Positions 11,639 to 33,891 of a stretch of DNA of 64,000 nt are shown one piece after another. Below the pieces are notes generated by a model that saw nothing but the letters and a program-made list of their open reading frames with translations, made no database searches and had not been told where the DNA came from. The position numbers and the translations under genes were made by a program. How positions within the stretch are numbered: the first letter of the stretch is position 1; each line of letters begins with the position of its first letter. Origin of the DNA: Anaeromyxobacter dehalogenans 2CP-C (GTDB lineage Bacteria; Myxococcota; Myxococcia; Myxococcales; Anaeromyxobacteraceae); NCBI RefSeq assembly GCF_000013385.1, contig NC_007760.1:3384001-3448000 (forward strand), read 5' to 3'.

Positions 11639-13072
11639 TCAGCGGTCCTCGACCGGCGCGTAGAACGAGACGCCCCGGACGTCCGCGTTCACCTTGAGCG
11701 GATGCTGCAGCGGCGGGAACGCCCGCTGCTCGCAGTCCATCCGCTCGCACAGCCGGCAGGTCAGGCCCACCGGCACCACCGCCTCGCGCGCCCCGAGGTT
11801 CACGCCGTCGGCGTAGACCAGCTCGCGGGCGCGCGTGGCCTCGCACCCCATCGCGATGGCGAGCACCGAGCGCGGCGCGTGGAACCCGCCGCCCTCGCGG
11901 TTCACGGTGCGCGCGATCCAGAAGTAGGTCGCGCCGTCGGGCATCTGCGAGAGCTGCGTGCGGACCAGGCCCGGCGTGGTGAACGCCTCGAACAGGTTCC
12001 AGCGCGGGCAGGCGCCGGAGAAGCGGGCGAAGCGGAGCCCGGAGGCGGAGAACCGCTTCGAGATGTTGCCGGCGATGTCCACGCGGACGAGGTGGAAGGG
12101 GACGCCCTCCGCGCCGGGCCGCCGCAGCGTGGTGAGCCGGTGGCACACCTGCTCGAAGCTGGTGCGGAACCGGTGGCCGAGCAGGTCGAGGTCGTAGCGC
12201 TCGGCGCGCGCCTGCTCGAGGAACGGCCCGTAGGGCATGAGCACCGCCGCGGCGAAGTAGTTCGCGAGCGCGACGCGGGCGAGCGCGCGCGACGAGTCGC
12301 TGGTGAGGTGCGGGTCGGCCACGAAGCGATCGAGCACGTCCGCCTGCGTGAGCAGGCCGATCTGGTAGGCGAGCTGGAAGTTGCGGCTCCCGCGGCGGAG
12401 CAGCTCGGAGAGGTGGAGGACCTTCGCCTCGGGGTCGTAGCGGCGCATGGCGCCGCGCGCCTCGGCGGTGTGGACGATCCGCACGGTCACGCCGAGCTGG
12501 CCGAGGAAGCGCACCAGGCTCGTGTACAGGTAGTCCGGGTCGAGGCGCGCCTCGCGCCAGAGCGCCTCGCTCCCCGCCTCCAGCTCCGGGAAGTGGTTCA
12601 TGTGGCGCTGGACGAGGTCCGAGACCTCCTCGGTGGGCAGGTGCGAGGAGTCCACGCCGTCGAGGTCGCCGTCGGACAGCGTCGCGGCGAGCGTGTCGGA
12701 CGCCTCGCGGGCGGCACGGTACGCCTGGTAGAGCGACAGGACCGCGCGGGCGGCCGTGGGCGAGGACGAGGCGAGGTCCCGCACCTCCGCGTTGGTGACG
12801 TCGTGCGGCTCGAACAGCGGATCCCCGAACACCTCCATCAGGTCGGCCACCACGCGCGCGTGGTGCTCGGTCGAGAGCGACTTGAGGTCGAGCTCGAACA
12901 GGTCCGCGAGCTTGATGAGCAGCTGCGCGGGGAGCGGCCGCCGGTGGTGCTCGATGAGGTTCAGGTAGCTCGCCGAGATGCCCAGCCGATCGGCGAGCTG
13001 GGCCTGGGTGAGGTTGCGCTGGCGCCGGAGCGCCCGGACCTTCGCGCCGAGGTGCTGGCCGGGCTCGCGCAT
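11639..13072 (-). CDS. ScfR/RamB-type XRE regulator of acetate/propionate metabolism
   Basis: 477 residues. Residues 8-65 form an XRE helix-turn-helix (LTQAQLADRLGISASYLNLI). The middle resembles the M78/IrrE-like domain but the HExxH metal site is absent (NFQLAYQIGLL instead). The C-terminal ScfR (DUF2083) domain ends with CRLCERMDCEQRAFPPLQ, a Cys motif typical of this family. Members such as RamB control glyoxylate-cycle and propionate genes in response to acyl-CoA. It is divergent from the malate synthase-isocitrate lyase fusion, its obvious target. ATG 13072 chosen because gaggaggcgg is just upstream; a longer frame to 13216 lacks one. Confidence 0.85.
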   Translation of the reverse strand: MREPGQHLGAKVRALRRQRNLTQAQLADRLGISASYLNLIEHHRRPLPAQLLIKLADLFELDLKSLSTEHHARVVADLMEVFGDPLFEPHDVTNAEVRDLASSSPTAARAVLSLYQAYRAAREASDTLAATLSDGDLDGVDSSHLPTEEVSDLVQRHMNHFPELEAGSEALWREARLDPDYLYTSLVRFLGQLGVTVRIVHTAEARGAMRRYDPEAKVLHLSELLRRGSRNFQLAYQIGLLTQADVLDRFVADPHLTSDSSRALARVALANYFAAAVLMPYGPFLEQARAERYDLDLLGHRFRTSFEQVCHRLTTLRRPGAEGVPFHLVRVDIAGNISKRFSASGLRFARFSGACPRWNLFEAFTTPGLVRTQLSQMPDGATYFWIARTVNREGGGFHAPRSVLAIAMGCEATRARELVYADGVNLGAREAVVPVGLTCRLCERMDCEQRAFPPLQHPLKVNADVRGVSFYAPVEDR

Positions 13073-13212
13073 GTCCGCCTCCTCGCCACCGCGCGCGCCG
13101 CACGGGGCGCCGTTCCCGCGCCGGGTCGGGCGCGGAGGGGCGCGGCCTGGGCCGGCTGGCTGCCGGGCGGCCGGGCGTGGCCTCGCGAACATCATGGCGC
13201 AGCACGCCATTT

Positions 13213-13230
13213 TCAAGCTTTACGGCTTGA
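13213..13230. promoter_or_regulatory. Inverted repeat between the ScfR-type regulator and the glyoxylate fusion gene
   Basis: TCAAGC-N6-GCTTGA, perfect arms, lies 141 bp upstream of the regulator start and 111 bp upstream of the fusion gene, in a locally AT-richer stretch. Position and symmetry suit an operator, possibly autoregulatory for the ScfR-type protein. No binding evidence can be given from sequence alone. Confidence 0.35.
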
Positions 13231-13291
13231 CCGCTACCCATTGACAACGCGCCGACAGCTTAACTGTTCGGAATCACAGCAGCTATTGTGT

Positions 13292-13305
13292 TTGATCCAA
13301 ATCAC
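13292..13305 (+). promoter_or_regulatory. FNR/CRP-family-like box upstream of the glyoxylate fusion gene
   Basis: TTGAT-CCAA-ATCAC matches the FNR half-site consensus TTGAT-N4-ATCAA at nine of ten defined positions, 35 bp before the ATG. A plausible -10 (TATTGT, 13284-13289) with TTAACT 18 bp before it would put the box at the transcription start, suggesting repression. Single site; chance match cannot be excluded, though such AT-rich sequence is rare in this window. Confidence 0.4.
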
Positions 13306-13340
13306 GATAACGATTCCGGGGCACAGGAGGAACACACACG

Positions 13341-16676
<3,336 letters not shown>

Positions 16677-16727: not shown

Positions 16728-16845
16728 CGCGCCGCCTCGAGGTCCGCTGCGCTCCGCACGGCCGGCCGCTCCCCTGCGGCCCCGCGCTGGTCGGTGCGCC
16801 AACGAGGCCCCGCCGTTCCGGCCGGAATCGGTTACGTTGTCGGGC

Positions 16846-18069
16846 GTGCTCGATCCCACCAGAGCGGGCGAGGCGCTCGCACCGGAGCTCGTGGTCGGCG
16901 TCCCCGCGGAGCCGGATCGGCTGGCGGCGAGCGAATCGGCGCAGGCGCTCCAGGCCGCGCTGCGCGCCGCCTACCCGTCCCGGCCGGCCGTCGCCGTGGT
17001 GCTCACGGGCGACCCCCGCGGCGCGGCGCCGCCCGGCGAGCTGCTGGTGCCCGCCTCCCCGGACGGCGAGCCCCCGGCGGTCTACACCGGCAGTCACGAC
17101 GGCCTGGAGGCGGCCCTGCCCACGTTGCTCGAGGTGGAGCTGTCGCTCGGCGCGCCCGCCTGCGCCCTGCTGGAGCCCATGCCTCGCCCGGCGGATCCGG
17201 CCTGGATCCGCCAGCTGCTCGACCCCGTCCTCGACGGCACCTTCGACCTCGTCGCGCCGGCGTACGCCCGCGGCCGCTTCGACGGCGTGCTGGTCACCGG
17301 CGTGGTGTACCCGCTCACCCGCGCCCTGTTCGGCCAGCGCCTGCGGCAGCCGCTCGGGCGCGAGGTGGTGGTCTCGCGCGCGCTCGCCGAGCGCCTCCTC
17401 GCCGACGGCGCCTGGCGCAGCGACCCGTCCAGCGCCGCCGCGGATCTCTGGGTCATCGCGAAGGCCGCCGCGCACGAGACGCGCATCGCGCAGGTGTACC
17501 TGGGGCCGCGCACGCGCCCGCCGCCGCAGCCCGCCGACGTCTCGCAGGCGGTCGCGCGCGTCCTCGGGACGGTGTTCCAGGACATGGCGCTGCACGCGCC
17601 CCGCTGGCAGCGCGTGCGCGGCTCGCGCCCGGTCCCGACGTTCGGCGAGGAGCACCTCCCCGGCGAGCCGAACCCGCCGCCCGCGCCCGGCCCGCTCGTG
17701 TCGGCCTTCGGGCTGGGCTGGCAGGACCTCCGCGCGCTCTGGGGCGCGGTGCTGCCGCCCCAGACGATGCTGGCCCTCCAGCGCATCCCCCGCGATCCGC
17801 CCGAGTCGTTCCGCATGCCCGACGCGGTCTGGGCCCGGGTGGTCTACGACTTCGCGGTGGGCTGGCGCGTGAAGATCATGGATCGGGAGCAGCTGCTGCG
17901 GTCGATGACGCCCCTGTACCTGGGCTGGGTCGCGAGCTTCGTGAACGAGGTGGGCGGGCTGGGGCGGCCGGAGACGGAGGCGCGGGTGGAACGGCTGTGC
18001 GAGGCGTTCGAGGCGGAGAAGCCCTACCTCATCTCGAGGTGGCGCTGGCCGGACCGCTTCACGCCCTAG
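16846..18069 (+). CDS. Glycosyltransferase-like protein (GT2/mannosylglycerate-synthase type)
   Basis: About 407 residues. The block DLVAPAYARGRFDGVLVTGVV near residue 140 and YPLTRALFGQRLRQPLG after it resemble bacterial GT-A enzymes related to glucosyl-/mannosyl-glycerate synthases, where the matching region follows a metal-binding DxD. Here the place where DxD is expected reads LLEPMPRPADP, so the classical motif seems lost. No membrane segments. Start is uncertain: TTG 16837 and GTG 16846 are both in frame and neither has a good ribosome site. Its stop is 8 bp before the next gene, and the set continues with malQ, suggesting a sugar/compatible-solute operon. Confidence 0.55.
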   Translation: MLDPTRAGEALAPELVVGVPAEPDRLAASESAQALQAALRAAYPSRPAVAVVLTGDPRGAAPPGELLVPASPDGEPPAVYTGSHDGLEAALPTLLEVELSLGAPACALLEPMPRPADPAWIRQLLDPVLDGTFDLVAPAYARGRFDGVLVTGVVYPLTRALFGQRLRQPLGREVVVSRALAERLLADGAWRSDPSSAAADLWVIAKAAAHETRIAQVYLGPRTRPPPQPADVSQAVARVLGTVFQDMALHAPRWQRVRGSRPVPTFGEEHLPGEPNPPPAPGPLVSAFGLGWQDLRALWGAVLPPQTMLALQRIPRDPPESFRMPDAVWARVVYDFAVGWRVKIMDREQLLRSMTPLYLGWVASFVNEVGGLGRPETEARVERLCEAFEAEKPYLISRWRWPDRFTP

Positions 18070-32052: not shown

Positions 32053-33891
32053 TCACCTCGCCTCCTTCGCGAGCAGCTCGTCGGTCACCGAGCGCGCGTC
32101 CAGCGGGAGCCCGTGCACGTGGGCGATGCCGCGCAGCCGCGGCACCAGCTCGGTGGGGAGATCCAGCTTCAGCAGCGCGGCGAGCTGGCCGTCGCGGTTC
32201 TGCTCCACCACGTAGACCCGGTCGTGCGCGCGCACGAACGCCTCCACCTCGCGCGAGAACGGGTAGGCGCGGACGCGCAGGTAGTCGGTGTCGAGGCCCG
32301 CCTCGGCCGCGAGCTGCGCGCGCGCCTCCAGGATGGCCGGGTGCGAGGAGCCGTAGGCGACGATGCCCACCGGCGCCTTCCCGCCGCCGTGCCGCTCCGG
32401 CGCCGGAAGGATCGCCCGCGCCCCGTCGAGCTTCCGCGCCAGCCGCGCCATGTTCTCCTCGAACACGGCCGGGCTCTCGCTGTAGGCCGAGGCGTCGTCG
32501 TGGCCGGTGCCGCGGGTGAAGTACGCGGCGCGCGGGTGATCGGTCCCGGGCAGCGTGCGCCAGCCGATCCCGTCGCCGTCCACGTCGCGGTAGCGGGCGA
32601 AGCCGCCGAGGCGGTCGAGGTCCTCCTTCGAGAGCACCTTGCCGCGGTCGAGGGGGCGGTCGGGGTACGGGAACGGGTCCGCCATCCAGTTGTTCATCCC
32701 GAGGTCGAGATCGGTCATCACGAACACCGGGGTCTGCAGCCGCTCGGCGACGTCGAACGCCTCCACGCCCATCGAGAAGCACTCCTCGACGGAGCCCGGG
32801 AACAGCAGCACGTGCTGCGTGTCGCCGTGCGAGAGGAACGCGGTGGAGAGCACGTCCCCCTGCGACGTGCGGGTGGGCAGCCCGGTGGACGGCCCGACGC
32901 GCTGCACGTCGAAGATCACCACCGGGATCTCGGCGTAGTAGGCGAGCCCCACGAACTCGGCCATGAGCGACAGGCCCGGCCCGGCGCTCGCCGTCATGGC
33001 GCGCGCGCCGGCCCAGCCGGCGCCGATGGCCATGCCCACCGCGGCCAGCTCGTCCTCGGCCTGGACGACCGCGTAGGTGGCCCGGCCGTCGGCGTCCACG
33101 CGGTGCTCGCGGAGGTGCCCGATGAGCGTCTCGACGAGCGAGGACGAGGGCGTGATCGGGTACCAGGCCACCACGGTCACGCCGGCGAACAGCGCCCCGA
33201 GCGCCGCCGCCGAGTTCCCGTCCACGATGAGCTTCCCCGCGGTCGCGTCCATGCGCCGGACCGACAGGCGGTCGCGCTTCTCCAGCGCCCCGGCGTGCTC
33301 GAAGCCGGCGCGCGCCGCGGCCACGTTCAGCTCGCGCGCCTTCGCCTTCTGCCCGAAGACGCGCCCGATGGCGCGCTCGACCTCGGCGAGCTCGATGCCG
33401 AGCAGCCGCGCCAGGACGCCCACGTACGCCATGTTCCGGAGGAGCTTGCGGAGCCGGGCCTCGCTCGCGACGGGCGCGACCACCTCGTCGAACGGGACCG
33501 GGTAGAACACCAGGTCGTCGCGCAGCGAGGCGAGGCCGAGCGGCGCGTCGTAGACCACCGCCGCGCCCGGCGAGAGCGCGCGCACGTCCTCGCGCGCGGT
33601 CTCCGGGTTCATCGCCACGAGCAGGTCGATCTCCTTCTTGCGCGCGACCCAGCCGTCCTTCGAGGCCCGGACCGTGTACCAGGTCGGAAGCCCCGCGATG
33701 TTGGAGGGGAACAGGTTCTTGCCCGAGACCGGGATGCCCATCTGGAAGAGCGCGCGCAGCAGGACGGTGTTGGAGCTCTGCGAGCCCGAGCCGTTCGCGG
33801 TGGCGACCTGGATGGAAAAATCGTTGACGAGCGGGGATGCGGCCGCGCGGCCGCCCCCCGCCTTCGCCGCTGCAGTGGTGTGCTCGAGCAT
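32053..33891 (-). CDS. korA: 2-oxoacid:ferredoxin oxidoreductase, fused gamma-alpha subunit
   Basis: 612 residues. The first 190 or so are a gamma domain (IQVATANGSGSQSSNTVLLR near 26). The rest is the alpha subunit: WYPITPSSSLVETL near 237 is the substrate-binding hallmark, and PTRTSQGDVLSTAFLSHGD near 333 is conserved. The gamma-alpha fusion with a two-gene operon is the usual layout for bacterial 2-oxoglutarate/acetate-type OFORs. Substrate cannot be fixed from sequence; 2-oxoglutarate is most likely. ATG 33891 is preceded by ccggagc; the longer frame to 33972 starts with a Pro/Arg-rich unlikely leader. Confidence 0.9.
   Translation of the reverse strand: MLEHTTAAAKAGGGRAAASPLVNDFSIQVATANGSGSQSSNTVLLRALFQMGIPVSGKNLFPSNIAGLPTWYTVRASKDGWVARKKEIDLLVAMNPETAREDVRALSPGAAVVYDAPLGLASLRDDLVFYPVPFDEVVAPVASEARLRKLLRNMAYVGVLARLLGIELAEVERAIGRVFGQKAKARELNVAAARAGFEHAGALEKRDRLSVRRMDATAGKLIVDGNSAAALGALFAGVTVVAWYPITPSSSLVETLIGHLREHRVDADGRATYAVVQAEDELAAVGMAIGAGWAGARAMTASAGPGLSLMAEFVGLAYYAEIPVVIFDVQRVGPSTGLPTRTSQGDVLSTAFLSHGDTQHVLLFPGSVEECFSMGVEAFDVAERLQTPVFVMTDLDLGMNNWMADPFPYPDRPLDRGKVLSKEDLDRLGGFARYRDVDGDGIGWRTLPGTDHPRAAYFTRGTGHDDASAYSESPAVFEENMARLARKLDGARAILPAPERHGGGKAPVGIVAYGSSHPAILEARAQLAAEAGLDTDYLRVRAYPFSREVEAFVRAHDRVYVVEQNRDGQLAALLKLDLPTELVPRLRGIAHVHGLPLDARSVTDELLAKEAR

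Follow-up and report, generated by a model that had tools for sequence, protein, structure and literature searches.

The glyoxylate-shunt gene aceBA of Anaeromyxobacter dehalogenans 2CP-C appears, on balance, to have a composite promoter, at which an ScfR-family regulator would exert acyl-CoA control and an FNR-type protein would impose a veto when oxygen is absent. The locus lies in the window, the whole 64-kb stretch of DNA that was analysed (3,384,001–3,448,000 of the 5,013,479-bp genome, labelled G000). The aceBA gene (13341–16676, plus strand) encodes a 1111-residue fusion of malate synthase (TIGR01344, 841 bits), isocitrate lyase (PRK15063, 758 bits) and a hemerythrin tail (PF01814, E 3.7e-12, residues 989–1103). 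The gene for the regulator (11639–13072, minus strand, start codon at 13072) is divergent from it across an intergenic region of 269 bp. This region, in which the initial annotation had placed its two sites, holds both a direct-repeat array (13210–13246, plus strand), the proposed ScfR operator, and an FNR box, TTGATCCAAATCAC (13292–13305), which has the nine of ten consensus bases that the annotation had counted. A ribosome-binding sequence, AGGAGGA (13325–13331, plus strand), follows the box and implies a leadered mRNA.

The regulator, a RamB/PrpR-like protein with a helix-turn-helix, an IrrE/GAF-like region and an ScfRs C-terminal domain, is of the ScfR type that had been assigned to it: PF09856 matches at E 4e-66, over its cut-off, PF06114 at 1.8e-23 and an N-terminal HTH_31 at 1.5e-11, and it matches the structure of PrpR from Mycobacterium tuberculosis (6cyy) at E 1.8e-85. 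The C-X2-C-X4-C cluster motif of the clade is present, TCRLCERMDC aligning with GCKICNRTSC of PrpR. The NCBIfam RamB equivalog (NF038139) gives 450 bits over the full profile, which is below its 700-bit cut-off and leaves the protein outside the equivalog. The locus has the features of class-2 RamB, namely repeated TKACA-like boxes upstream of the glyoxylate genes and a divergent ramB gene, with a box spacing that is not identical. Three genomes (G014–G016) have ScfR, lack aceBA and have no array beside the ScfR gene, where ScfR must therefore act on something else. ScfR genes that likewise stand apart from any aceBA or array (L150, L151 and L152) have transporter-like genes next to them.

The array reads TTTTCA-N3-TTTACG-N2-TTGACC-N8-TTGACA, with units beginning at 13210, 13219, 13227 and 13241 and a possible extra unit, CCGACA, at 13252. 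The corresponding three-unit pattern is TTKACA-N3-TTKACA-N2-TTKACA, from which the array in the window differs at 3 of 18 positions. With a threshold of at most 4 mismatches, the pattern stands upstream of aceB or aceA at 19 of the 21 loci where an ScfR gene is divergent, against none of the 68 that lack one (89 loci, L012 being left out as the same locus as L090), and on the reverse strand of the ScfR loci it is found in 0 of 21. The two ScfR loci that miss the pattern, L024 and that of G005 (L158), are each 5 mismatches away from it. Some of the sequences later counted had served to define the pattern in the first place, and the members of the family are not independent; among the ScfR loci that had not been inspected before its first form (L021, L024, L029, L038, L061, L065, L076 and L155), seven of eight pass. 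The matches span Myxococcota, one Acidobacteria genome (L061), Kordiimonadales (L021 and L029) and unclassified MAGs. Elsewhere in the A. dehalogenans genome no further array was found, that of the window being the sole match at 3 mismatches or fewer (control 0). A related, stricter pattern gave six matches in 24 family genomes, five at the aceBA promoter and one in G009, a genome without ScfR, where it precedes a gene read as nuoA and was taken as a chance match. Facing scfR on the minus strand, TTGAAA-N17-GATGTT was seen by eye at 13213–13240; read in that way, its -35 element would fall in the first array unit and would allow scfR to repress itself.

In its class the proposed operator matches that of RamB in Paracoccus denitrificans Pd1222, with a layout that differs in detail. 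As described in the available part of PMC10370305, the gene for that RamB is divergent from those for malate synthase and isocitrate lyase, and two boxes 18 bp apart are needed: mutation of either box abolishes expression on acetate, and mutation of both abolishes RamB binding. The 14-bp boxes, TGACAAACCTTACA and TGACAATACTGACT, were cut in the present analysis from the oligonucleotide table of the same partly available paper, by its stated 17-bp flanks and 18-bp spacer, and each is a pair of TKACA-like units 9 bp apart. To the extent covered by this source, both systems have an ScfR gene that is divergent from the shunt genes and, upstream of the start, repeated TKACA-like units at a 9-bp interval (here units 1 and 2). 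The second box of P. denitrificans starts 32 bp on, whereas the third and fourth units here stand at +17 and +31, and its malate synthase and isocitrate lyase are separate, whereas here the two enzymes are fused, end in a hemerythrin tail and are preceded by an FNR box. The word 'oxygen' is absent from the main text of PMC10370305. Also comparable are PrpR/RamB of M. tuberculosis and RamB of Corynebacterium glutamicum, which belong to the same protein family; the consulted portions of PMC6765138 and PMC4448153 describe PrpR as a CoA-binding protein with the C-X2-C-X4-C cluster motif, and several RamB targets of C. glutamicum that are also under the CRP/FNR-type regulator GlxR. In these portions the sites differ from the present ones in being TTTGCAAA-like and partly palindromic, and GlxR responds to cAMP, not to oxygen.

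The FNR box is the only site with at most one mismatch in the window (shuffled mean 0.03, with one site in 3 of 100 shuffles). The sequence before the shunt gene was readable in 14 family genomes, and the box is kept with at most one mismatch in 11 of them (G000, G001, G002, G004, G005, G006, G008, G017, G018, G019 and G021), is two mismatches off in G010, and is absent from G003 and G012. In G018 (L093) and G019 (L155) the promoter with ScfR, array and FNR box precedes isocitrate lyase alone, neither the fusion nor aceB. Outside the family, none of 12 ScfR loci has the box at this stringency within the 330-bp range (88 loci scanned); that of L003 stands at -364, beyond the range and apparently inside the regulator gene. 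In the 11 promoters that have both elements, the distance from the start of the array to the start of the box is 82 bp in nine, 81 in G005 and 92 in G010, near-fixed although the distance from box to ATG varies. This spacing suggests that both regulators would act on the same polymerase-bound promoter. Identity among six representatives (G005, G006, G001, G018, G004, G010 and G012 being excluded) is 91% in the FNR half-sites against 50% in the N4 between them, and 81% in the array units against 45% in the array gaps; background 10-mers between the elements have a mean of 48% and a maximum of 64%. The ScfR gene and the array are lost together. G004, a 100% complete genome, has neither and keeps the FNR box, the conserved sequence resuming at GGTATTG immediately before it, and G003 has no ScfR, array or box.

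FNR oxygen sensors have four cysteines, three of them N-terminal and one in the sensory domain, besides an E-x-x-S-R recognition helix. The same arrangement is found in one protein of A. dehalogenans (G000:C1:1541163-1541813, minus strand), which has a C-X2-C-X9-C N-terminus, C100 in the sensory domain and the recognition helix ETLSR. The spacing of the N-terminal cysteines differs from that of Escherichia coli FNR. Orthologs were found in 21 of 24 family genomes and in all 16 good ones, and all 21 keep ETLSR and six cysteines (C10, C13, C23, C37, C78 and C100). By its residues the protein is thus FNR-like, without being a member of the enterobacterial Fnr subfamily. No FNR-type gene was found in the 80% complete assembly of G012, which has lost the box and kept ScfR and the array. 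The whole A. dehalogenans genome has 21 FNR-like sites with at most one mismatch, against 3 for a reversed-pattern control. Besides the aceBA box, six of them precede genes that fit an FNR regulon, namely those for a NiFe hydrogenase, three multihaem c cytochromes, a molybdopterin oxidoreductase and pyruvate:ferredoxin oxidoreductase (PFOR); at the remaining 14 no anaerobic gene is evident, six of these sites (L114, L116, L120, L121, L124 and L163) being inside open reading frames. A molybdopterin oxidoreductase beside an FNR-like site (L123:1-1384, minus strand) is split into an open reading frame for the Fe4S4 part and one for the molybdopterin part, and may have a selenocysteine codon.

Where these sites belong can be read in several ways. 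The initial annotation had described an inverted repeat here, and TCAAGCTTTACGGCTTGA (TCAAGC-N6-GCTTGA, 13213–13230) is indeed a perfect 6+6 repeat, which overlies repeat units 1–3. That this palindrome is itself the operator, of ScfR or of another regulator, is so improbable that it was rejected. Its arms are fully complementary only in G000 and its nearest relative, G006, 2 of 12 related promoters, while in the other ten, 2 to 5 of the 6 arm positions are non-complementary and the direct repeats persist; over all 12 promoters, the repeats have 0–3 mismatches at 18 positions except in G005, which has 5. Perfect 6-bp arm pairs with loops of 3–10 are moreover frequent, with 647 in the window; the intergenic region has 4 against a shuffled mean of 0.94. 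Alignment of related genomes, which the annotation had named as the check, therefore bears out the FNR box and not the palindromy, and the conserved element is the direct-repeat array, on present alignments locally palindromic in this strain by happenstance. It is also very unlikely, if slightly less so, that the box serves the divergent scfR gene instead of aceBA. The two genes share the intergenic region in which the box sits, but G004, without an ScfR gene, retains the box 38.5 bp before aceBA, and G012 has ScfR and no box. A reader other than an oxygen-sensing FNR, such as a nitric-oxide sensor of the Crp/Fnr kind, is unlikely, though it deserves more weight than either of these. Some relatives encode extra Crp/Fnr proteins with ESxSR helices, the NCBIfam Fnr model (PRK11161) gives the FNR-type protein just 21.5 bits against a cut-off of 228, and its best PDB match is DNR. 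However, two proteins of A. dehalogenans exceed the HTH_Crp_2 cut-off, the comparison of putative readers being confined to these two and leaving out the longer cNMP-binding L171, L172, L173 and L175; the second lacks an E-x-x-S-R helix, an FNR query gives one match across the genome, and the six cysteines are retained in every ortholog. Oxygen-sensing FNR remains the preferred reader.

The direction of FNR control depends on where transcription starts. A scan found no consensus sigma-70 promoter in this region. Conservation points to a candidate core promoter A, TTAACT (13260–13265)-N18-TATTGT (13284–13289), on the plus strand, which is kept in G012, where the box is missing; an alternative candidate B, TTGTGT (13286–13291)-N17-AACGAT (13309–13314), on the same strand, would have the FNR box in its spacer. 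The two were compared by hand, both are weaker than consensus and neither is established; A is preferred because in G017 B would leave only some 9 nt ahead of the ATG. Across the family the centre of the box lies 31.5–42.5 bp before the ATG (42.5 in G000, 31.5 in G017), with the Shine-Dalgarno sequence between box and ATG in G000 and all or nearly all relatives, which is too close for FNR to activate a leadered mRNA. In E. coli, according to the accessible part of the literature, 19 of 23 FNR-activated promoters have the site at -41.5 ± 4, and repressing sites range to positions that overlap +1. With a class II site, transcription would begin at the first base of the coding sequence or within it. 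Any ordinary leadered mRNA would put the box between promoter and +1, the position of a repressor, and FNR would probably repress aceBA rather than activate it. Activation in anoxia, with the box as a class II site for a start that coincides with the ATG or narrowly precedes it, has a small chance of being right, a shade better than that of a different reader. The G000 distance would be near the class II distance if the mRNA were almost leaderless, and the six other FNR-like sites named above stand before genes for which activation by FNR would be expected. Against it stand the widespread ribosome-binding sequence, the E. coli distances and G017, where the start would have to be about 10 bp into the gene.

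With repression as the preferred direction, the promoter would work as follows. ScfR of the RamB kind would bind the array, upstream of the core promoter, and adjust aceBA transcription by acyl-CoA, probably activating it during growth on acetate or fatty acids. FNR, active only without oxygen, would bind the box, overlapping the core promoter or the start site, and block transcription. The outcome would be an acyl-CoA AND NOT anoxia gate, with the shunt made on acetate in air and off without oxygen. Dual control by acyl-CoA and oxygen had been proposed in the initial annotation and we infer it with good support, since the box is conserved, the genome has a gene for an FNR-type protein and an ScfR operator can be recognised; as to the sense of the oxygen control, the position of the box would fit repression rather than activation. 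The hemerythrin tail, which had been taken as a sign of oxygen control, does exist, but its occurrence does not follow that of the box: the fusion of G003 matches through the tail (query residues 8–1111) at a promoter with neither box nor array, so tail and box are not tied.

In anoxia, acetyl-CoA would instead be carboxylated to pyruvate by PFOR, which has matches in all 24 family genomes, one of them partial (TIGR02176, 1773 bits). This enzyme can carboxylate acetyl-CoA without oxygen, so repression of the shunt in anoxia would cost little. Its gene has an FNR-like site, TTGATTCTCGTCAA, 74 bp before its start and outside the window (L113:1501-1514; G000:C1:244996-245009). Among nine genus genomes this site has at most one mismatch in three (G000, G001 and G006), two in G002 and three in G003 and G007, and is absent from G004, G005 and G008. 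Reciprocal FNR control of PFOR was therefore dropped as a general feature, the site being kept only in the closest relatives, where it is a lead. Tentatively, and with clearly less confidence than for the promoter itself, an FNR repressor site may have been added in the Anaeromyxobacteraceae to an older ScfR shunt promoter, at a fixed 82-bp register, to give the gate at one promoter; together with the reciprocal PFOR site of A. dehalogenans and its nearest relatives and with the oxygen-binding hemerythrin tail, oxygen might then choose between two routes of acetate assimilation at the level of both gene and protein. The window itself contains a second 2-oxoacid:ferredoxin oxidoreductase (POR_N, 1.2e-50), at about 32710–33231 on the minus strand.

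Lowering of the shunt at low oxygen has precedents with other regulators. In E. coli, aceBAK is lowered at low oxygen by ArcA, a two-component regulator and not FNR. In Brucella suis, isocitrate lyase is likewise lowered at low oxygen, by RegA, which again is a two-component regulator and not FNR, according to the available text of PMC5435760. The FNR-repressed ndh and fnr promoters of E. coli, in the part of PMC3688515 that was accessible, have an TTGATnnnnATCAA box that lies close to the start site or covers it and are repressed without oxygen, as the present one would be, and differ in that a fixed distance couples the box here to an ScfR operator; no glyoxylate-shunt gene was found among the FNR-repressed promoters in that part. 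The kind of operator and FNR repression are each already known. A fused shunt gene that has both an ScfR operator and, at a fixed distance from it, an FNR box was not found described in the literature searched, to which most subscription papers do not belong and in which the comparison was made with the available portions of PMC10370305, PMC6765138, PMC3688515, PMC4448153, PMC2330069 and PMC5435760. The proposal gives a concrete and testable oxygen switch, by which a facultatively anaerobic, acetate-using soil bacterium would select either the glyoxylate shunt or a reductive route. It also widens the range of the P. denitrificans RamB operator to Myxococcota, one Acidobacteria genome and further lineages, in the form of a searchable sequence pattern. 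Downstream of the fusion, an open reading frame of 410 residues (16837–18069) has no Pfam or NCBIfam match, and a similar one stands at the equivalent place in G004 (L156:7029-8294).
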